This document shows, one piece after another, positions 18,145 through 53,047 of a stretch of DNA of 64,000 nt; the first letter of the stretch is position 1; each line of letters begins with the position of its first letter. Below the pieces are notes generated by a model. That model made no database searches, was not told the DNA's origin, and saw only the letters and a list, made by a program, of their open reading frames with translations. Position numbers and translations under genes: made by a program. This DNA comes from Cellulomonas iranensis NBRC 101100 = JCM 18110 (GTDB lineage: Bacteria; Actinomycetota; Actinomycetes; Actinomycetales; Cellulomonadaceae), in assembly GCF_001552375.1 (NCBI RefSeq), contig NZ_BCRB01000001.1, positions 1 to 64,000 of the forward strand, given 5' to 3'.

Positions 18145-19754
18145 CCACCACCTCACGACGCGCGTTCCTCGGCGCGGGCACGGCGACGCTCGGGGCTGCG
18201 GCGCTCGCCGGGTTCGGGCTCCGGGGCCTCGACGCGCCGCCCGAGGACGCGCGTCCGCCCGCGCCGGGTCCGTACCGGGTCGTCACCCCGGCCTCCGAGC
18301 AGTGGGAGGACCTGCGGCAGGGCACCAACCTGCGGTGGATCGGGTCGCCGCGACGGATCGCCTTCCCGCGGGACGCGAGCGAGGTCGCGGCCGAGATCCG
18401 GACGATCCAGCGGCTAGGGCTGAGGCCCGCCGTCCGTAGCGGCGGCCACGGGTACGAGAGCTTCGTCTCGAACGACGACGTCACCGCGATCATCGACCTC
18501 GCGGCGATGAACCAGGTGCGCTGGGACCCGCGCCGGCGCGCGTTCGAGGTCGGTGCGGGGGCCCAGCTCGGCGCCGTGTACCAGCTGCTCTACAAGCAGT
18601 GGGGCGTGTACGTCCCGGCAGGCAACTGCCCCACCGTGGCGGCCGGTGGACACATCGCGGGCGGCGGCTACGGCAGCATGAACCGCCGCGACGGCCTCGT
18701 CGTCGACCACCTCGCCGCGGTCGAGGCCGTGCACGTGCGCGCGAACGGCACGGTGCGGACGTCCGTCGGGACGCGCGACCCCCGCAGCCCCGACCATGAG
18801 CTGTGGTGGGCCTACACGGGCGGTGGCGGCGGCAACTTCGGCGTCGCGACGCGGTACTGGCTGCGGTCGCCGGCGGCCGCGGGCGACCGGCCCGAGGCCG
18901 CCCTGCCCACCCCGCCGCGGCACGTGATCCTCTCGACCGTCGCGTGGCGGTGGGACGACCTCGACGAGGCGAGCTTCGGGCGGCTGCTCGCGAACCACGG
19001 GCGGTGGCACGAGGAGCACAGCGCGGCCGGCACGCCGGAGGCCGGCCTGTTCTCGCAGCTGAAGACCTGGCACCGCGCCAACGGCACGATCACCCTGGAC
19101 ACGGTCGTCGACGCGGGCGTGCCCGACGCGGACGGCGTCCTCGACCGTCACGTAGGAGCGCTCTCACAGGGCATCCCGGTGCCGACCGTGCTGCAGCGTC
19201 GACGCGTGCCCTGGCTGCAGGGGACGCAGTGGACCGGCTTCACCGGACCCGACCCGACGCGCAGGTTCGACGGCAAGTCCGCGTACCTGCGTCGCACCTG
19301 GACCCCGACCGCGGTCGCGGCGGCCTACCGCGCCCTGACCGACCCGTCGTTCTCCCACCCCGGCGCGCTGCTCATGATCGCGTCCTACGGCGGGGCGGTG
19401 AACACCGTGGCCCCCGACGCGACCGCCGTCGCGCAGCGTGACTCGATCATCAAGTTCCAGGTGGTGTCCATCTGGGACGACCCCGAGGACGACGCCGCGA
19501 ACCTGGCGTGGACCCGCTCGACCTACGCCGCCATGTTCGCGGACACCGGCGGCGTCCCCGTCCCGAACGCCGACACCGACGGCGCCTTCGTCAACTACGC
19601 CGACACCGACCTCGACGACCCGGCCCACAACACCTCGGGCCTCAGCTCGCTCGACCTCTACTACAAGCACAACCTCCCGCGCCTCGTCCGGGCGCGGGCG
19701 GCCTACGACCCGAAGGGACTCTTCAGCCATGCACAGAGCCTCCCGGTCAGCTGA
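18141..19754 (+). CDS. Tat-exported FAD oxidase, berberine-bridge (BBE) family
   Basis: Flavin-dependent oxidase of 537 aa. The N terminus TTSRRAFLGAG with a following hydrophobic stretch is a twin-arginine signal, so the enzyme should be exported folded with its cofactor. The FAD-binding domain has RSGGHGYESF (H103) and GNCPTVAAGGHIAGGGYG (C163), the two residues that covalently hold FAD in BBE-type oxidases, so bicovalent flavin is expected. The C terminus carries the BBE motif, with YYKHNLPRLVRARAAYDPKG. The family oxidises sugar, cyclitol or alkaloid alcohols. ATGA overlap with the VOC gene and GGAGGG at 18128-18133 fix the start. Confidence 0.92.
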   Translation: MTTTSRRAFLGAGTATLGAAALAGFGLRGLDAPPEDARPPAPGPYRVVTPASEQWEDLRQGTNLRWIGSPRRIAFPRDASEVAAEIRTIQRLGLRPAVRSGGHGYESFVSNDDVTAIIDLAAMNQVRWDPRRRAFEVGAGAQLGAVYQLLYKQWGVYVPAGNCPTVAAGGHIAGGGYGSMNRRDGLVVDHLAAVEAVHVRANGTVRTSVGTRDPRSPDHELWWAYTGGGGGNFGVATRYWLRSPAAAGDRPEAALPTPPRHVILSTVAWRWDDLDEASFGRLLANHGRWHEEHSAAGTPEAGLFSQLKTWHRANGTITLDTVVDAGVPDADGVLDRHVGALSQGIPVPTVLQRRRVPWLQGTQWTGFTGPDPTRRFDGKSAYLRRTWTPTAVAAAYRALTDPSFSHPGALLMIASYGGAVNTVAPDATAVAQRDSIIKFQVVSIWDDPEDDAANLAWTRSTYAAMFADTGGVPVPNADTDGAFVNYADTDLDDPAHNTSGLSSLDLYYKHNLPRLVRARAAYDPKGLFSHAQSLPVS

Positions 19755-37506: not shown

Positions 37507-38112
37507 ATGGACGACCGAACGACCCCGCCGGGCACGCCGGCGAACCCGAACCCGAACCCCGACCCGACTGCCGCCGCCGGGGCTCCGACGGGCGCAGGTG
37601 GCTCCGGCGCGGCCGCCGCGTCGTCCGGCGCCCCCGGGCAGGCGGGCCCGGGAGCTCCCGCCCCGGGTGGGCCCGCGCTGCCCGCGCCCGGCTACGTGCA
37701 GCCGGCGTACGTGCCGCCCGCAGGTGCCGGGGGACCGGCGGTGCCCGGTGCCGCGCCGGCCGTGCCCGCTGCGCCCGCCCGCCCGCGGCGGACCGTGAGC
37801 GCGGTCGTCGCGGCCGTGCTCGCGGCGGCGGCGCTCCTGGTCGGCCTCGTGGTGGGCGGCGGAGGTGTCGCCCTCGCCACCTTCGGGCACGGCGTCGGGA
37901 CCCACCGCGGCCCCGGCGCGTTCGCGGGCGTCCCCGACCACGACGGTGACCGCGACGGACGGCTGCCGGACGGCGGTGACCGGCCCGGCCGTGCGCTGCC
38001 CCGGGGCTCCGACGACGGATCGTCCGCGCCGCGCGACGCGCTGCCCGGTGGCGCGGGGGACGACGCGCAGCCCGGCGGGCAGGGCGACGGCGGGTCGTCC
38101 GAGGGCTCCTGA
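37507..38112 (+). CDS. Pro/Ala/Gly-rich single-helix membrane protein
   Basis: Protein of 201 aa with a Pro/Ala-rich disordered N-terminal region (about 1-95), one helix (about 97-122, VSAVVAAVLAAAALLVGLVVGGGGVAL) and an acidic Gly/Asp-rich extracytoplasmic tail. AGGAGG at 37496-37501 precedes the ATG. No domain recognised; the layout is common among actinobacterial envelope proteins of unknown role. Confidence 0.7.
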   Translation: MDDRTTPPGTPANPNPNPDPTAAAGAPTGAGGSGAAAASSGAPGQAGPGAPAPGGPALPAPGYVQPAYVPPAGAGGPAVPGAAPAVPAAPARPRRTVSAVVAAVLAAAALLVGLVVGGGGVALATFGHGVGTHRGPGAFAGVPDHDGDRDGRLPDGGDRPGRALPRGSDDGSSAPRDALPGGAGDDAQPGGQGDGGSSEGS

Positions 38113-38128
38113 GCTCACCCGGGCGCAC

Positions 38129-38157
38129 GCACCGGGGCCGCTTCCCGGCCCCGGTGC
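38129..38157. terminator. Bidirectional hairpin terminator
   Basis: An 11-bp perfect stem (38129-38139 with 38147-38157) with a 7-nt loop lies midway between two convergent genes (stops at 38112 and 38213). Confidence 0.75.
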
Positions 38158-38212
38158 AGGGCCGTCGTCGGGCGCAGGTCGCGCGGCCCCGTGGGGCGGG
38201 AGCTCGAACCCG

Positions 38213-38896
38213 CTAGTACGACTCGCTGCGCTCGACGACACCCACCCCGTGCGCCTGGCCGTACCGGTGGAGCGTCTGCGAGAACGCGGGGTAGGCGTCC
38301 TCCGCGACGAGGCGGAAGGGCAGCACGAGCTTGGCGCCCTTCACGGTCGCCGCGGGCGACCCCGTCGCGGCGAGCCGGGACCGGAGCAGCGCCGCGTCGC
38401 GGGCCTCGAGCTCGATCCGGCCGGTCAGCCCTTCGGCGTTCTGCGCGGCCGCGGCGACCTGCTGGCCCACCTGCGTGTTCCCCCGCGCGTGGTTGTCCGC
38501 CTGCTTCTTGGCACGGAGCACGACGATCACCCGGGACAGCTCCTCCCACGCCAGCTCGACGCCGTCGCGCGTGCGCAGCCCGGACGGCCCGGCGGTGACG
38601 AACGGCGGCCTCGTCGCCTCCCGGGCAGCGGTTGCCACGCGCCTGCCGCGGAGCACCACGAACAGCGCGAACAGCACGCCGACGCCGAGCAGGAACCACC
38701 CGGCACCGGCGCCGCCGGCGGGGCCGCGGAACGCCAGGACCGCCACCGCGAACGCGCCGACGCCGATCGCGGCGAGCAGGATCAGCATGCCGAGGTTCCG
38801 GCTCCGGTACGTCGTCGCCTGCCGCGCGCTGGCGGCGAGCGCGACGCCGTCCGTCGGGGTGCCGGGGGGAGTGGTGAGGTCGTCTCCGGTCGCCAT
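38213..38896 (-). CDS. Two-helix membrane protein with PH-like cytoplasmic domain
   Basis: About 227 aa. Two adjacent helices (about residues 35-83) are followed by a soluble region (PPFVTAGPSGLRTRDGVELAWEELSRVIVVLRAK) that resembles bacterial PH-like domains by its beta pattern. The ATG at 38896 is the most probable start; the frame continues upstream without domain content. The function is not recognised. Confidence 0.65.
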   Translation of the reverse strand: MATGDDLTTPPGTPTDGVALAASARQATTYRSRNLGMLILLAAIGVGAFAVAVLAFRGPAGGAGAGWFLLGVGVLFALFVVLRGRRVATAAREATRPPFVTAGPSGLRTRDGVELAWEELSRVIVVLRAKKQADNHARGNTQVGQQVAAAAQNAEGLTGRIELEARDAALLRSRLAATGSPAATVKGAKLVLPFRLVAEDAYPAFSQTLHRYGQAHGVGVVERSESY

Positions 38897-39031
38897 GGCC
38901 CGATGGTAGGGAGGCCCGCCACGACGCGACAGGGGTGCTCCACCACGCGGGACACGACCGCGCAGGTGGCCAGGGCGGTCCGGGCCGCCCACGCCCGCGG
39001 GAATCACGGAGACGCCCCGGTGGTTGTGACG

Positions 39032-39099: not shown

Positions 39100-39466
39100 G
39101 GGGGTGATCGGTTTCGACGGTGATCGTCGAGCCAGGTGAAGCGGGTCGAGGATGCACGGTTATCTCGTAAACGCTCCGTGCGACTCATAGGTGCCGATTC
39201 CAAGCGCACCGACTTCGCCCTCGCCGCCTGAGCGAGCCTCGAAGTCCGTCGGCCTAGACATGCTCTCGGTCTAGTTCCCGGCGTCATCTAGAGAGCCACT
39301 GCTGTCCGTCCTCGTCGGTGGGGCGGGCGGGACTCTTAGCCGACTGAGCCCGTCCACGTCTTGTCCGCGTGATCGTGGGGGCTGAGAAAATCTACTGCGG
39401 ACTGCACCCGGAGAAGCCCTGGTCCCACGTCATCGGACGCGGGTTCGATTCCCGCCACCTCCACCA
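39100..39466 (+). ncRNA. ssrA: Transfer-messenger RNA (ssrA)
   Basis: tmRNA of 367 nt that rescues stalled ribosomes with SmpB. The 5' end GGGGGTG (39100-39106) pairs with CACCTCC (39456-39462), including the G3-U70 wobble that specifies alanine; discriminator A39463 and an encoded CCA (39464-39466) follow. GGTTTCGAC (D-arm region) and GGTTCGATTCC (T arm) are intact. The tag frame starts at GCC 39193 and reads ADSKRTDFALAA before TGA 39229-39231. The one-piece form is typical outside alpha-proteobacteria and cyanobacteria. Confidence 0.98.
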
Positions 39467-39474
39467 TGAAGTGT

Positions 39475-39571
39475 TTGCAGGCTGCGCGCGATGTCTTTGC
39501 ACATCGTGTGTCGCGGCTGCAAGCAGCGAATGACGAACGGCCCTGTACCCTCGACGGGTGCAGGGCCGTTC
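39475..39571 (+). terminator. Two tandem hairpins after ssrA
   Basis: Hairpin one, 39475-39522, is imperfect: outer TTGCAG pairs CTGCAA, inner CGATGT (39489-39494) pairs ACATCG (39501-39506). Hairpin two is a 16-bp stem with one G-U pair (39535-39550 with 39556-39571) and a 5-nt loop. Together they should terminate ssrA. The stretch 39572-39826 shows nothing else I can support. No integrase was found, although ssrA 3' ends are frequent attachment sites. Confidence 0.6.
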
Positions 39572-39826
39572 GCATGCTCACGCCGGTCGCCTGCGGTGGT
39601 CGGCCGGGTTCGTCTCCTCGGTCGCCTCCGCCTGCTCCCGGTGAGGTGCGCGCACCCGTTGTCGACCGGCTCCGGCGGCAGGCGCTCCTGTTCCGCGGAC
39701 GGCGTCGGGCGCACAGGGGCGGTCGACTTCTGAGGCGAGTCGAGGCGACGTCGTCACCCCACGCGACGGCCTGGTCGCCGTGCTCGCGGATGTCGCGGGT
39801 GGGAGGCGGGTCCTTCGCTCACGGGA

Positions 39827-42187
39827 TCAGGCGCCCCTGGGCGGCACCAGCCAGTGTCCACCGACGGACCAGCCGAGCAGCCGTCGTCCCGTGCCGCCCT
39901 CGGCGACTCCGAGCTCGTCGAAGCGGCCGCCGGCGAGCACGTGCGCCAGGCCGTCGACGACCGGCCGCAGCTGCGAGGCGTTGCCGGTGGCCGTCGCGTC
40001 GTGGAGCCGTCGCACCGCCGAGGCCTGGGACGGCTCGTCGCAGAAGCTCAGGAGGTAGATCGCCTGGCGCCACCCGTAGGCGATGTTCTTGACGGCCTGC
40101 AGCGCGGCGTGGTGCTGGTCCGGGAGGTGCGCGTGTGCGTGGAGCATCCAGGAGAACACCCGCTCGGCCAGCTCGGGGGCACGTTCGCGAAGCGTCGGCT
40201 CCAGGTCGAGCGCGAAGGTCAGGACCGCGAGATTGTGGGTCGTCAGGATCTGGCTCTGCTCGAGCACTGCCCCGTTCGCCGCCACGCTCCACGAGCGGCC
40301 GACGGCGCCCGCCTCGCGTGCCCGCGTGCGGCACAGCGTGGCGAAGTCGTCAGCCGTCTCCTTGCCCCAGCGCCTGCGAGCCTTCCGCGCCCAGCCGCTC
40401 GGCGGAGGAGCAGCCGCCCAGGTCTCCGGGCCCGGCAGGTCGTAGTAGCGGGCGTAGAGCGATCCGTGCAGGCCCTCGCTCGCCGCGCGGGCAGCGGTCC
40501 GCCACTTCGTTGTGAAGGTCCCCATGAAGATGTCCGCTGCGACCTCGTCGACCAGTGCAAGGCGCACGTCGGCCACGCTTGCGAGCGCGCCGAGCTCACG
40601 CACCAGCGGGTTGGGCAGGATCGTCTCCGGGAATGAGTCCAGCGCGAGCAGGACTGATCTGGTCAGGGCCTGCCGAGCGGGTCTCGACGAGCTGCTGCGG
40701 TCGCGGAAGCCAGACACCGCGGCGACCCACGGCAGCTCGTCAAAGCTCACCTGGTGCTCGAGGTCCAGCAGCAGCAGGCTGCGCCGACGCCGGAACGCCG
40801 AGTAGGTGCGCGCATGCAGACCTGCGAGCACCGGGTCGGCGATGCCCGCCGACACGTACGGAGCCGTCACCTGAGGCAGGACCGTGGCGAGCACCTCACC
40901 GGAGCCGATGACCCCGCGGGCGATGAGCTCCTCGACGGGCGCCTCGAGGGCACGGCTGACCTTCCGCACCACGGAGGGCGGCACAGGTGCATCTTCAGAG
41001 AGCGCCGGCTCCTCCGCACGGGAGATGGCCGCGACGACCCGATCAAGGTCGGGCAGGCCGCTCTCGGCCGGGAACTGGTCGAGTCGGTTCGCCACGAGGT
41101 GCGCCAGAGCGGCGTGCGTCGGCCGAGCCGCAACCACGGCCTGCACCGCACGCAGCGCCGCGCGCGCCTCACTGCCCGGCGCGCCGTGCCGGGTGATCGT
41201 GTTGGCCAACGCCCGACGAACCCAACCCACGTCGCGGCCGGAGAGGCCGGCGCCGTCGTCCCCGGCCGCCGCGAGCGCGCGACGGAGCCTGCTGAAGTTG
41301 CTCTTGGAGTGCTGGTGCCGGCTCGACACCGCGGCCCGCTCGACCGTCTCGACGTAGCGGGCCAGCCACGCCGCGCGCCGCACCGCCCAGTCGTCCGGGT
41401 ACCGTCTGGCCGGCCAGCCACCCTCCACGCGGGTGGTGCCGTCGCCGTCGACGAGGCGTGGCAGTTCGCCATCGACAGTCGCGGCCCACAGCGCGACGAG
41501 GTCGTCGTACAGCGGGTCCCACAGCGTGAGCGTCTCTCGCATCGCGACGATCTGCGCCGGGGGCGTGGACGACCGCAGCCCCGACCGGATCGCCCCGACG
41601 GTCTCCAGGTGGACACCGGTTCCGGTGGGCACCGCCCGCTCGGTGAGATGGGGGGTGAACCGCAGCCGACTCAGGAACGGGCCGATCTCTGCCAAGAGGT
41701 CCAGTGCGGCCTCGACGTTCCCGTGATCGACCAGGAGGGCGATCACGGCGAGCGCCGCGTGCTCGGGAAGGTCGATGCGGTAGCGGTCATGTGCCAGTGC
41801 GGCCAGCAGCTCCGACTGTCCGGCGTCGCTGAGGTACCAGAAGTTCAGCCGCTCGCGCGACGTCGAACCGGGTCCTGGAGGCAACGCGGCGAGTCGCGAC
41901 GTCTCCGCTTCGTCGAGTGGTTGCTCAGCCAGCAGGCGTCCGGTCGCGAAGCCGCCGGTCACGACCTCCAGGGTGACCCAGGCGGGCATGCCCGCCACAG
42001 GCGTACGCGAGCCGACCCCCAGCTCGCCGCCTGCCATTCCGTCGAGCACCGCGCGCCAGCGGTCAGCTCTGGCCGTGGCGCGGGCCCGCGTGGCGGCGTC
42101 CTTGCTCGTGGCCGCCGTGCGCAGGGCGGCCCGTAGTCGACCTGCCGCGTACCAAGGCGAGGCTTCGGCCTGAGGCTCGTCGTGCAT
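39827..42187 (-). CDS. Large protein of unknown function behind a tRNA-like leader
   Basis: A 786-aa soluble, largely helical protein with no signal peptide or membrane helix. I do not recognise the family. Striking segments are RERLNFWYLSDAGQ (about residue 115), LWDPLYDDLVALWAATVDGELPRL in the centre, and QILTTHNLAVLTFAL, HLPDQHHAALQAVKNIAYGWRQAIYLLSF near the C terminus, which look conserved rather than filler. The ATG at 42187 has GAGGAG 5 nt upstream. Base composition looks lower in GC than flanking genes, consistent with transfer. Two tRNA-shaped sequences end 23 nt before the start on the same strand, leaving no space for a separate promoter, so they are probably in the mRNA leader. 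An RNA-linked or defence role is speculative. Confidence 0.85.
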   Translation of the reverse strand: MHDEPQAEASPWYAAGRLRAALRTAATSKDAATRARATARADRWRAVLDGMAGGELGVGSRTPVAGMPAWVTLEVVTGGFATGRLLAEQPLDEAETSRLAALPPGPGSTSRERLNFWYLSDAGQSELLAALAHDRYRIDLPEHAALAVIALLVDHGNVEAALDLLAEIGPFLSRLRFTPHLTERAVPTGTGVHLETVGAIRSGLRSSTPPAQIVAMRETLTLWDPLYDDLVALWAATVDGELPRLVDGDGTTRVEGGWPARRYPDDWAVRRAAWLARYVETVERAAVSSRHQHSKSNFSRLRRALAAAGDDGAGLSGRDVGWVRRALANTITRHGAPGSEARAALRAVQAVVAARPTHAALAHLVANRLDQFPAESGLPDLDRVVAAISRAEEPALSEDAPVPPSVVRKVSRALEAPVEELIARGVIGSGEVLATVLPQVTAPYVSAGIADPVLAGLHARTYSAFRRRRSLLLLDLEHQVSFDELPWVAAVSGFRDRSSSSRPARQALTRSVLLALDSFPETILPNPLVRELGALASVADVRLALVDEVAADIFMGTFTTKWRTAARAASEGLHGSLYARYYDLPGPETWAAAPPPSGWARKARRRWGKETADDFATLCRTRAREAGAVGRSWSVAANGAVLEQSQILTTHNLAVLTFALDLEPTLRERAPELAERVFSWMLHAHAHLPDQHHAALQAVKNIAYGWRQAIYLLSFCDEPSQASAVRRLHDATATGNASQLRPVVDGLAHVLAGGRFDELGVAEGGTGRRLLGWSVGGHWLVPPRGA

Positions 42188-42210
42188 GAGACTCCTCGAA
42201 CGGGAAAGGG

Positions 42211-42282
42211 ACCTGAAGGCGAGAGTCGAACTCGCACCCTCCCGGGTGACAGCCGGGTGCTCTTCCGGTGAGCTACTCCAGG
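42211..42282 (-). tRNA. tRNA-Asp(GTC)-like element in leader of the 786-aa gene
   Basis: Folds as a 72-nt tRNA: acceptor CCTGGAG with CTTCAGG (one G-U), D arm GCTC/GAGC with GG in the loop, anticodon arm CCCGG-CTGTCAC-CCGGG (anticodon GTC), variable loop AGGGT, T arm GCGAG-TTCGACT-CTCGC. Odd features: the 5' base is C, position 73 is T rather than the G needed by aspartyl-tRNA synthetase, and no CCA is encoded. It may be a non-aminoacylated mimic. Confidence 0.7.
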
Positions 42283-42287
42283 ACGAG

Positions 42288-42359
42288 ACATGGAGGCAGG
42301 ATTCGAACCTGCACCCTCCCGGTCCGGAGCCGGGCGATCTGCCATTGATCCACTCCATG
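42288..42359 (-). tRNA. tRNA-Arg(CCG)-like element in leader of the 786-aa gene
   Basis: Folds as a 72-nt tRNA: perfect 7-bp acceptor CATGGAG with CTCCATG, D arm GATC-AATGGCA-GATC, anticodon arm CCCGG-CTCCGGA-CCGGG (anticodon CCG), variable loop AGGGT, T arm GCAGG-TTCGAAT-CCTGC. The A15-T48 and G18/G19 contacts are available. The 5' base is C, position 73 is T, and no CCA is encoded. Anticodon stem and variable loop are identical to the neighbouring element 5 nt downstream, so one likely arose from the other. Confidence 0.7.
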
Positions 42360-42373
42360 CAGCGTGCGACGCC

Positions 42374-42402
42374 ACGGTAGATGCTCGCGCTGGGCACGTC
42401 AC
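42374..42402 (-). promoter_or_regulatory. Probable promoter of the tRNA-like leader and 786-aa gene
   Basis: On the minus strand GTGACG (42397-42402) and TACCGT (42374-42379) are 17 bp apart, and TACCGT lies 14 nt before the first tRNA-like 5' end. This predicts one transcript containing both tRNA-like elements and the gene. Confidence 0.5.
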
Positions 42403-42780
42403 GCCGATTCAGGTCGCGGATCGGCCGGGCGTCCGGATCGCCCTGAGATGCCATGCGGGTCGTGTGGAGAATGGTGGGCGGACGGCGTTCTGTGCGCTCG
42501 ACCGTCAGTGGCGCGGCGCTCGTCGACCTACGTCGCCGGGGCGTCGTAGGGCGAGATCCATGCGGTTCTGTGGATGAACTTGCTGTCGACGACATGCATG
42601 AGACCCGTCGACTCTCAAGCGCGCTCGTGCAGATCGGGCCCGACCAGGACCTGGTCGTCTGCCACCTGTTCGTCGTCGACGAGGATCACCGTGGGCAACA
42701 TCATTCCGCCACCACCCCACCATGACGCTCTCGCTCACGTTCTTTCGTGGACGAGCAGCGGTCCAGGAAGCGAGCAGACA

Positions 42781-51042: not shown

Positions 51043-51212
51043 ACGCACACCGGCACGCCGACGGACCGCAGGCGTGGGCGCGCCTGACCGACGACGCCCT
51101 GCGCCACGAGATCGAGGCGAACCGGCGCGCGGAGCGCTGGTTCACGGTGGCCGGCGCGTGCGCCGCGCTGCTGACCGTCCTGGTCGTCCTGGTCGTCGCG
51201 GCCGTCCGATGA
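51039..51212 (+). CDS. Small single-helix membrane protein of the GT operon
   Basis: 57-aa protein with a charged N-terminal half (LTDDALRHEIEANRRAERW) and one helix at residues 36-56. It is joined to both neighbours by 4-nt ATGA overlaps, so a genuine small subunit is likely. It may stabilise the glycosyltransferase or kinase in the membrane, as short PgaD-like proteins do. No homologue recognised. Confidence 0.75.
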   Translation: MNAHRHADGPQAWARLTDDALRHEIEANRRAERWFTVAGACAALLTVLVVLVVAAVR

Positions 51213-53047
51213 GCCCGTCCCGCCGCGACGCCGTCGACGCGGCAGCCCTCGAGGACGCCGCGCCGCGCGAGGACGAGAAGGCCTCGACCGCCTCGCCGCA
51301 GCCGGAGCTGCGCTACCTCGGCCCGGTCGCGCGGTACCTCGGCTCGGGCGCGTCCGTGGTCGAGCGGCAGCTGCCGTTCGCGATCCTCATGACGCTCGCG
51401 CTGCTGGCGCTGCTCTCGCCGGGGCTCGAGGCGACCTCCGGCTCGGCGGTGGTCCTCGCGGCCGCCGTCACCGTCGCGTGCCTCGTGCTCGCGGCCTTCG
51501 TGCCGTGGGAGCGGCTGCCGGAGTGGGCGCCCGAGGCGCTGGCCCTCCTGCAGTTCGTCGCGGTCGCGGCCCTGCGGCAGGGGTCCGGCGGCATGACGTC
51601 GCCGTTCGCGGGCATGGTGCTGCTGCCCGCGCTCGCGCTCGCCGCGCGCGCCGGCATGGTCGGCGTGCTGCTCGGCACGCTGGGCGCGGCTGCGACCGTG
51701 CTGCTCGGGCTCGCGCTGAGCCCCTCGACGCACGCCTCCCAGACCGTCGTCGTCCGCAGCCTGTTCGTCGCGGCCATCGCCCTCATCATCGGGCTCGTCG
51801 TGCAGGAGTCGACGGCGCGCCTGCGGCAGCGCAACAAGGTGCTCGCGCGGCTGCAGGCCGAGCAGGCGGACGCGCTGCGCCGGACACGGGAGGCGGCCGC
51901 GTCGCTCGGCAAGTCCGTGTCGCTGCGCCGCGCCGCGCACCAGCAGCTCGTGTCGGTGATCGACTCGGCCACCGAGCAGGCGATCATCGCGACCGACGCC
52001 GACGGGATGGTCGAGGTGTTCAACGCGGGCGCCGAGCGGCTGCTCGGGTTCGCGCAGGGCGAGGTCGTGGGGCGGCGGTACCTCACCGAGTTCCACCTGC
52101 TCGACGAGCTGCTCGAACGCGACCCGCAGGACGGTGCGCCGCCCGCGGCGTCCGACCACCCCACGCTGCTGCGGTCGGTCCTGGCGCCGCGCGCGGCGGC
52201 CGGCAAGGACGTACGGGACTGGACGTACGTGCGTCGCGACGGCTCGCACGTCACGGTGCACCCCGCGGTGACGCGCCGCACCGACCACGACGGGGCGGTC
52301 GTCGGCTACGTCGTCGTCGCGACCGACGTGACGGCGGACCGCGAGGCCGCGCGGCTCAAGGACCAGTTCGTCGGGCTCGTGAGCCACGAGCTGCGGACCC
52401 CGCTGACGGCCGTGCTCGGCTACGTCGAGCTGCTGCTCGACGAGACCGAGGAGCTGACGGAGGACCAGCGCGAGTACCTGCAGATCATCGACCGCAACGC
52501 GCGCCGTCAGCTGCGCCTCGTGAGCGACCTGCTGCTGACCGCCCAGATGGACGCGGGCACGTTCTCGATCTCGCCGCAGCCCGTGGACCTCGCGACGATC
52601 GCCGCGGCGTCGCTCGCGACCGCGGCGCCCGCGGCGGCCGCCGCCGGGATCACGCTCGAGAGCGACCTCGCGCCGACGCCCGCGCACGCCGACCCCCTGC
52701 GGCTCGGGCAGGCGGTCGACAACCTCGTGGCCAACGCGCTGAAGTTCACCGACCGCGGCGGCACGGTGCGTCTCGTGGTGCGCCCGCAGGCCGACGGCGG
52801 CGGGCGGCTCGCCGTGAGCGACACCGGGATCGGCATCCCGCCCGACGAGCTGACCCACCTCACGGAGCGCTTCTACCGCGCGAGCACGGCGACGCGGCGG
52901 GCGGTGCCCGGCGTGGGCCTGGGGCTCGCGATCACGCGTGCGGTCGTGGAGGCGCACGGCGGGCACGTCGGCGTGACGAGCGCGGTCGGCGAGGGCACGA
53001 CGTTCACGGTGACCCTGCCGCCCGCGCCGTCGGCCGCAGGGGCGTGA
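51209..53047 (+). CDS. Membrane PAS sensor histidine kinase of the GT operon
   Basis: Kinase of 612 aa. About five or six helices (55-200) form a membrane sensor, a coiled linker follows (205-245), then a PAS domain (about 248-375, TEQAIIATDADGMVEVFNAGAERLLGF), a HisKA domain with H393 in VSHELRTPLTAVLGY, and a HATPase with NLVANALKF, DTGIGIPPDE and GVGLGLAITRAV. The ATG overlaps the small-protein stop. As the only kinase in the operon it most likely phosphorylates the receiver of the PIG-L fusion, putting deacetylation under signal control. No separate DNA-binding regulator is present. Confidence 0.92.
   Translation: MSPSRRDAVDAAALEDAAPREDEKASTASPQPELRYLGPVARYLGSGASVVERQLPFAILMTLALLALLSPGLEATSGSAVVLAAAVTVACLVLAAFVPWERLPEWAPEALALLQFVAVAALRQGSGGMTSPFAGMVLLPALALAARAGMVGVLLGTLGAAATVLLGLALSPSTHASQTVVVRSLFVAAIALIIGLVVQESTARLRQRNKVLARLQAEQADALRRTREAAASLGKSVSLRRAAHQQLVSVIDSATEQAIIATDADGMVEVFNAGAERLLGFAQGEVVGRRYLTEFHLLDELLERDPQDGAPPAASDHPTLLRSVLAPRAAAGKDVRDWTYVRRDGSHVTVHPAVTRRTDHDGAVVGYVVVATDVTADREAARLKDQFVGLVSHELRTPLTAVLGYVELLLDETEELTEDQREYLQIIDRNARRQLRLVSDLLLTAQMDAGTFSISPQPVDLATIAAASLATAAPAAAAAGITLESDLAPTPAHADPLRLGQAVDNLVANALKFTDRGGTVRLVVRPQADGGGRLAVSDTGIGIPPDELTHLTERFYRASTATRRAVPGVGLGLAITRAVVEAHGGHVGVTSAVGEGTTFTVTLPPAPSAAGA

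Follow-up and report, generated by a model that had tools for sequence, protein, structure and literature searches.

What two transfer RNA (tRNA)-like folds do directly ahead of a large protein gene is the question raised by a locus of Cellulomonas iranensis NBRC 101100 = JCM 18110. The locus lies in a stretch of 64,000 nucleotides (nt), hereafter the window, which spans positions 1 to 64,000 of contig NZ_BCRB01000001.1. On the minus strand, a putative promoter arranged as GTGACG-17-TACCGT is followed by two tRNA-like elements 5 nt apart, a gap of 23 nt with GAGGAG, and a gene for a 786-amino-acid (786-aa) protein whose frame ends at 39827. The folds, gaps and frame had all been described in an earlier reading of the sequence alone, and this observation is confirmed here. 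ARAGORN labels the two elements tRNA-Arg(ccg) (42287-42359) and tRNA-Asp(gtc) (42209-42282), and the tRNA family RF00005 matches them with 65.5 and 62 bits, respectively (cut-off 29). The arrangement proved to be more general than the sequence-only reading could see. Homologs of the gene in other genomes are preceded by elements of the same kind; tRNA mimic and protein thus travel together through many genera, which points to an undescribed RNA-protein partnership. The feature is real, conserved and, as far as the literature and libraries searched go, undescribed; no description of the element-gene unit was found in the open-access literature, which in itself does not establish its absence in print.

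Linkage of the Element and the Gene

Among 394 genomes of the class, 27 encode a homolog of the protein, the genome of the window included, and these belong to 8 of 138 genera. Apart from that genome, 3 of 57 relatives carry a homolog, and a contig scan covering close relatives only yielded 13 homolog loci. A sample of 396 genomes of the phylum gave five matches: three already known, a full-length homolog from a second class (L087), and a short match (E 8e-4, 48 positions) that was not counted. Plasmids carry the gene in 6 of 72,556 records. No match was obtained in 50,697 phage records or in viral contigs, and a phage origin was rejected on this ground.

The linkage scan covered 49 of 53 loci; L018, L024 and L042, which duplicate genes represented by other loci, were left out, as was L045. 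At every one of the 49 scanned loci, at least one tRNA-like element stands directly upstream of the gene, and because this holds for all of these homologous loci the arrangement is not due to chance. The descriptor used for the scan reached its threshold in 6 of 300 control windows and a score of 20.5 in none of them, a score attained by 48 of the 49 leaders. It counted one element in 36 loci, two in 10 and three in 3. Two models, R1 (from 35 elements of the type called II below) and R2 (from 27 elements of type I), add weaker second copies at L002, L033 and L037, and extra copies lie far upstream in L053, L041 and L040. On the Embleya plasmid of L053 (L053:1520-1859), three type II elements follow one another, the last abutting the ATG.

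R1 and R2 each match 51 of 52 sources, with all listed matches inside leaders, although their training overlaps many of the loci so tested. The two window elements, both within the R2 training set, score 92.4 (element 1) and 87.9 bits (element 2) with R2. Outside the training set, L087 scores 97.5 bits with R2 and L071 (genome G360) 85.9 bits with R1. When the 394 class genomes were scanned under strict filters, with 12 candidates scored per genome, R1 gave 25 matches of at least 75 bits in 20 genomes, 19 of them protein-bearing, and R2 gave 10 matches of at least 87 bits in 8 genomes, all protein-bearing. In the next tier of R1, at no more than 70 bits, one match is a type I element, and all nine of the other loci checked are tRNA-Val(tac); the next tier of R2, at no more than 77 bits, falls in genomes without the protein. 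High-scoring elements are present in 27 of 27 protein-bearing genomes and elsewhere only in G360. There the element is followed by about 21 codons reading MTNGYALGQLGKAFRTATTHE, which resemble the start of the family; beyond this gene remnant lies an insertion that, like IS3-type elements, encodes transposase and rve integrase domains. Among the 394 genomes and under these filters, no high-scoring element was found without a gene or a remnant.

Homologs lacking a tRNA-like leader had been named in the sequence-only reading as evidence that would speak against it. None was seen at the 49 loci or at L087. The exception is L045, the one source missed by R1 and R2. It is a C-terminal gene fragment, the second copy of the gene in G381, and no element was detected upstream of it. 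Decay does not discriminate for or against the toxin-antitoxin reading weighed below, because elements persist beside broken genes, yet this fragment has none.

Fold and Identity of the Elements

The elements are cloverleaves with stems of 7, 4, 5 and 5 base pairs, as judged by ARAGORN, Rfam, the descriptor and covariation. Covariation is pronounced in the two element types: 99.7% and 99.1% of pair cells are standard, and changes to both partners of a pair affect 58 and 44 cells, versus 17.8 and 12.4 in shuffles, although the alignments come from a cloverleaf descriptor, are biased towards that fold and count related sequences repeatedly. Structures slid along the alignment drop to 33-50% paired. 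Rfam 15 found only RF00005, and no other RNA family, at the elements of the window and of 10 of 10 loci tested, which were chosen from 131.

Two types can be distinguished. Type I mostly has the D-loop AGNGGNA together with the T-loop TTCGANN, and G18 G19 and TTC are kept in 27 of 27. Type II has mostly AGNAGNA and GGCRGNA, with GGC in 34 of 35 and A in place of G18 in at least 90%; it keeps G19 and C56 and changes G18, U54, U55 and A58. The TTC T-loop with G18 G19 that is expected of a decoding tRNA is consequently a property of type I and not of type II. In an unrooted tree of 41 proteins, which carries a long-branch warning for L003, L004 and L049, the proteins of type I loci (18) and type II loci (23) are split by a single branch with 100/100 support. 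Both types occur in the genus of the window (type I at L001, type II at L002 and L003), which suggests horizontal transfer.

Could these be ordinary tRNA genes that precede a gene by happenstance? The ARAGORN and RF00005 calls would agree with this, as would the retention of G18 G19 and TTC in type I. It is nonetheless extremely improbable, given the linkage at 49 of 49 loci and, in type II, the missing TTC and the abutting start codon. The anticodon, moreover, lacks the conservation among orthologs expected of a decoding tRNA: the 25 type I elements whose anticodon loop has 7 nt carry 13 different anticodons and the 35 type II elements carry 15, CTA is included, and in two further type I elements the loop has 6 nt. 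C1-G72 is invariant, in 62 of 62 different elements versus 3 of 45 ordinary tRNAs of the window's own genome, all three tRNA-Pro (46 such genes were found, one of them unparsed). Because the anticodons vary and C1-G72 does not, the elements are not decoding tRNAs; that they are mimics, as had been proposed from the sequence, is borne out. The own genome has 48 RF00005 matches, window elements included, and with further tRNA-Arg(ccg) and tRNA-Asp(gtc) genes present the window elements are not needed for decoding. Elsewhere in that genome, L106 (G000:C89:12000-13720) is a second tRNA-Ala(cgc) whose T-loop is missed by the TTC pattern.

The two window elements share the anticodon stem CCCGG/CCGGG and the variable loop AGGGT, begin with C and have T at position 73, in keeping with the earlier description. 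Its remark that CCA is lacking holds for these two but not throughout, since CCA is encoded at 74-76 in 10 of the 62 different elements.

Within the anticodon loop, C32 and U33 are constant and positions 34-37 are among the most variable. Such a pattern would suit a fold that is a bait for tRNA-cutting nucleases or a sensor of tRNA stress, with a cut in the loop changing the expression of an effector protein. The cassette is also patchy, sits at ssrA in the window and is broken in several genomes, as conflict genes often are, and the available text of one study describes an RNA-repair operon whose induction is accompanied by cut tRNAs (PMC7790460). This explanation is nevertheless quite unlikely. 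Variability at 34-37 is equally expected in the absence of constraint, and the descriptor permitted only five dinucleotides at 32-33. PADLOC recognized no family in 17 proteins, and on 10 of the 26 listed nearest neighbors it returned one weak oxidoreductase model only, for which reason a defense island was also rejected.

Putative Promoter, Shared Transcript, and Start Codon

In 39 of 49 loci the first element is preceded, at a distance of 8-15 nt, by the end of a TANNNT motif, which 10 loci lack; shuffled sequences have the motif so placed in 4.2% of cases and random 60-mers in 0.5%. By eye, GTGACG was seen in none of the other leaders. Of the promoter proposed from the window sequence, both hexamers are thus present there and the −10-like part recurs, but the −35-like part, as judged by eye, does not.

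The position of the start codon is more telling. In 23 of 28 type II loci the ATG lies 2 (10 loci), 3 (6 loci) or 4 (7 loci) nt after position 72; in 10 of the 23 it directly follows C74, and at L037 the abutting element is the second, weaker one. The proteins at these loci start with M followed by D, N, E or S. The last 30 nt before the 23 abutting starts contain no TANNNT, and by eye no Shine-Dalgarno sequence is seen in the 16 nt before them. With the ATG 2-4 nt past position 72, element and gene are, by their position, on one transcript in this streptomycete form. The argument that the gap leaves no room for another promoter, advanced for the window, is strongest here. At the other loci a shared transcript is very probable; type I loci and the remaining five type II loci have, by eye, a purine-rich Shine-Dalgarno-like stretch before the candidate start.

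These starts raise the possibility of a gate acting purely in cis, in which the fold keeps the start of the messenger RNA (mRNA) blocked or shielded, translation is set by tRNA-type processing, or by its failure under stress, and the freed RNA is idle. The abutting ATG and the missing Shine-Dalgarno sequence speak for such a gate, and leaderless mRNAs are frequent in Streptomyces coelicolor, with 264 having leaders under 10 nt in the available text of the study concerned (PMC4681348). Three observations make a pure gate unlikely. Shine-Dalgarno-like stretches precede the candidate start in type I and in five type II loci, the copies far upstream in L053, L041 and L040 are hard to explain, and in type I the better-conserved element is the one on the promoter side, with a second cloverleaf intervening before the gene in 9 of 21 loci. 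In these nine two-element loci, mean identity is 0.89 for the promoter-side and 0.85 for the gene-side elements, and the single-element type I loci (12 of 12) retain the promoter-side kind. That the promoter-side element is the better kept is easier to reconcile with a free RNA than with a gate at the start codon.

A further feature of type I was noted at first elements such as L006:4825-4897 and L008:4886-4958, where the acceptor-stem strand CATGGAG followed by TAG forms a near-leaderless mini open reading frame (ORF), ATG GAG TAG. It opens many type I transcripts. The window has TGG in place of the TAG, and the frame continues into the gene.

The Protein and Its Relation to Known Systems

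Homologs of the 786-aa protein show 37-56% identity in an alignment of 17 rows, and the AlphaFold2 model of the protein has a mean predicted local distance difference test (pLDDT) of 80.5 and a predicted template modeling score (pTM) of 0.63. The family matched no Pfam, NCBIfam or PADLOC family. Pfam searches with hmmscan on 17 and 30 members (E≤1 and 0.5) gave no family match, TROVE included. An aminoacyl-tRNA synthetase domain was not found in Pfam and NCBIfam searches, and neither Pfam nor PADLOC matched a nuclease of the ToxN/AbiQ/TenpN type. One NCBIfam model, an EF-P lysine ligase, matched 1 of 30 members at E 0.21 and was taken as chance.

Several known systems resemble the cassette in part. 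Ro60 is a helical-repeat protein. As in the Ro60/Rsr and YrlA operons, where, in the available text, an RNA-binding protein is encoded with a small RNA holding a tRNA-like domain (PMC7790460), a protein gene and a tRNA-like RNA occur together here. The cassette differs in that its protein has no TROVE match and its RNA, an entire cloverleaf, forms the 5′ end of the mRNA.

In type III toxin-antitoxin systems of the ToxIN kind, and with AbiF-linked RNAs, copies of a structured RNA lie upstream of one protein gene in a single transcript. The cassette likewise has structured RNA copies ahead of one gene, and with the same order of parts, one to three copies and carriage in those 6 of 72,556 plasmid records, it could be a pair of this sort, a tandem RNA antitoxin preceding its toxin. 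We regard this as improbable. The RNA imitates a tRNA instead of forming a pseudoknot; toxins of the ToxN type are far smaller than the protein, which exceeds them about 4-fold going by their usual size, is unrelated by profile search, and belongs to no Pfam or PADLOC family.

The translational operator of Escherichia coli thrS is an mRNA leader that imitates tRNA, in its arms only, and is bound by the encoded synthetase. The leader of the cassette also imitates tRNA, but as a full cloverleaf, ahead of a protein in which no synthetase domain was found and which may bind it. The pseudo-tRNA tRNA-Other of Bacillus cereus, proposed to be part of a larger regulatory RNA, is a tRNA-like element beside a genomic island, as here (PMC3399842). 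It comes from bacilli, and the available text of that report names no dedicated protein gene on the same transcript.

A Model for the Cassette

We tentatively favor, among these explanations, a mobile, self-contained RNA-protein cassette, in which the tRNA mimic is cut from the mRNA and partners its own protein. In its favor are the linkage, the covarying cloverleaf, the features at odds with decoding and, for the partnership, the branch that parts the proteins by element type. A single promoter, presumably of the sigma-70 type, would start the transcript a few nt before one to three mimics, and the transcript would continue into the gene. Enzymes of tRNA maturation would then excise the mimic, RNase P at its 5′ end and a tRNA 3′ endonuclease after position 73 or 74. 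Once freed, the mimic may act as ligand, cofactor or inhibitor, an RNA partner dedicated to the protein encoded on the same transcript. After the 3′ cut, an mRNA of the streptomycete form would begin at the AUG or no more than 2 nt from it, so that a single step would yield both the RNA and a translatable leaderless mRNA. Were the cut made after C74, 10 loci would have the AUG at the extreme 5′ end, and in 13 it would be preceded by 1-2 nt. Cuts between the two Cs of the CCA have been mapped in CCA-encoding tRNAs of S. coelicolor and Propionibacterium acnes, in the available text of the two studies (PMC4681348, PMC3848588). The biological role is probably a dispensable, mobile function. The sequence-only reading had offered both mimics that gate expression and substrates or guides of the protein; this interpretation is partly supported.

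A number of points weigh against the favored cassette. The published cuts between Cs concern tRNAs that encode CCA, and only 10 of the 62 elements do so; a cut after C74 is therefore a prediction and not a result. C74 itself, found in 62 of 62 elements, was dropped as a special mark, since 44 of the 45 parsed ordinary tRNAs share it (the exception looks misparsed). Enzymes acting on tRNA usually read the TTC T-loop, and its absence from type II argues against routine processing. In minimum-energy folds of the leader with the coding start, none of the six sequences, from five type II loci and from the window, gave the full cloverleaf, and their folding z-scores are all positive, from 0.2 to 1.3, which counts against easy folding. 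The protein is not basic, with 87 K+R against 87 D+E. Finally, since RNA and protein are neighbors, matching trees would follow from co-inheritance without any binding. A pairing of the T-arm with the coding start, hinted at by the minimum-energy folds, was rejected, as across the 49 loci it was no better than with far or shuffled sequence (mean z of 0.28 and 0.15 in type II and of 0.63 and 0.12 in type I).

Whether the cassette is a new class of mobile ribonucleoprotein in Actinomycetota, made from one transcript that is split by tRNA processing and in which tRNA maturation switches a leaderless mRNA, is doubtful. A full cloverleaf with a free anticodon, maintained for itself and linked to one protein family in two bacterial classes, is a natural experiment on non-decoding tRNA-like RNA. 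The cassette defines a protein family that should be easy to pull down with its presumed RNA partner, and it can show clearly whether leaderless mRNAs are made by tRNA-processing enzymes.

Insertion at ssrA and Neighborhood

In the window, the cassette sits at the transfer-messenger RNA (tmRNA) gene ssrA (Table 1), in an insertion that contains the cassette and about 0.3-0.4 kb on either side. The sequence CACCATGA is found at each border, inside imperfect repeats of the ssrA end. In a congener (G007), with 97% identity over a 467-bp ssrA query, the 3′ end of ssrA is joined directly to sequence whose match to the window starts at 42709. No integrase was noticed inside the insertion, where no family search of small ORFs was run.

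Table 1. Features of the cassette and its insertion site in the window; the elements are counted through position 74
Feature	Coordinates	Strand	Basis and remarks
−35-like hexamer GTGACG	42397..42402	−	Sequence; weak
−10-like hexamer TACCGT	42374..42379	−	Ends 14 nt before element 1
tRNA-like element 1, type I, anticodon CCG, C1-G72, T73 C74	42287..42359	−	ARAGORN, RF00005, model R2
tRNA-like element 2, type I, anticodon GTC, C1-G72, T73 C74	42210..42282	−	ARAGORN, RF00005, model R2
Shine-Dalgarno-like GAGGAG	42192..42197	−	Sequence
Gene for 786-aa, mostly helical protein, no family match	39827..42187	−	Translation, alignment, AlphaFold2
tmRNA gene ssrA, insertion site, outside the cassette proper	39100..39466	+	ARAGORN, RF00023 (156 bits)
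3256-bp insertion at 3′ end of ssrA, holds the cassette	39470..42725		Uninterrupted site in congener G007 (L144), with the ssrA end joined to sequence resembling the window from 42726

The neighbors of the cassette differ between genera. An operon partner was rejected, as no neighbor family recurs across genera among 17 loci and the window except for one match, between window 51074-53047, about 9 kb from the gene, and L009. Pfam families were assigned to 7 of 10 downstream neighbors, mostly metabolic or regulatory, and a tyrosine integrase, among these ten genes, adjoins L009.

Three minor observations were made in the window. Positions 38036-38979, about 0.9 kb upstream of ssrA, have no match in G007, where about 40 nt separate the flanking matches; this is a second difference from G007 at the ssrA site. 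ARAGORN calls a tRNA-Met at 18451-18543 on the minus strand without support from Rfam, probably a false call. The region of the gene start, 42178-42199, is imperfectly repeated (22 nt, 82%) at 42590-42611, 412 bp upstream.

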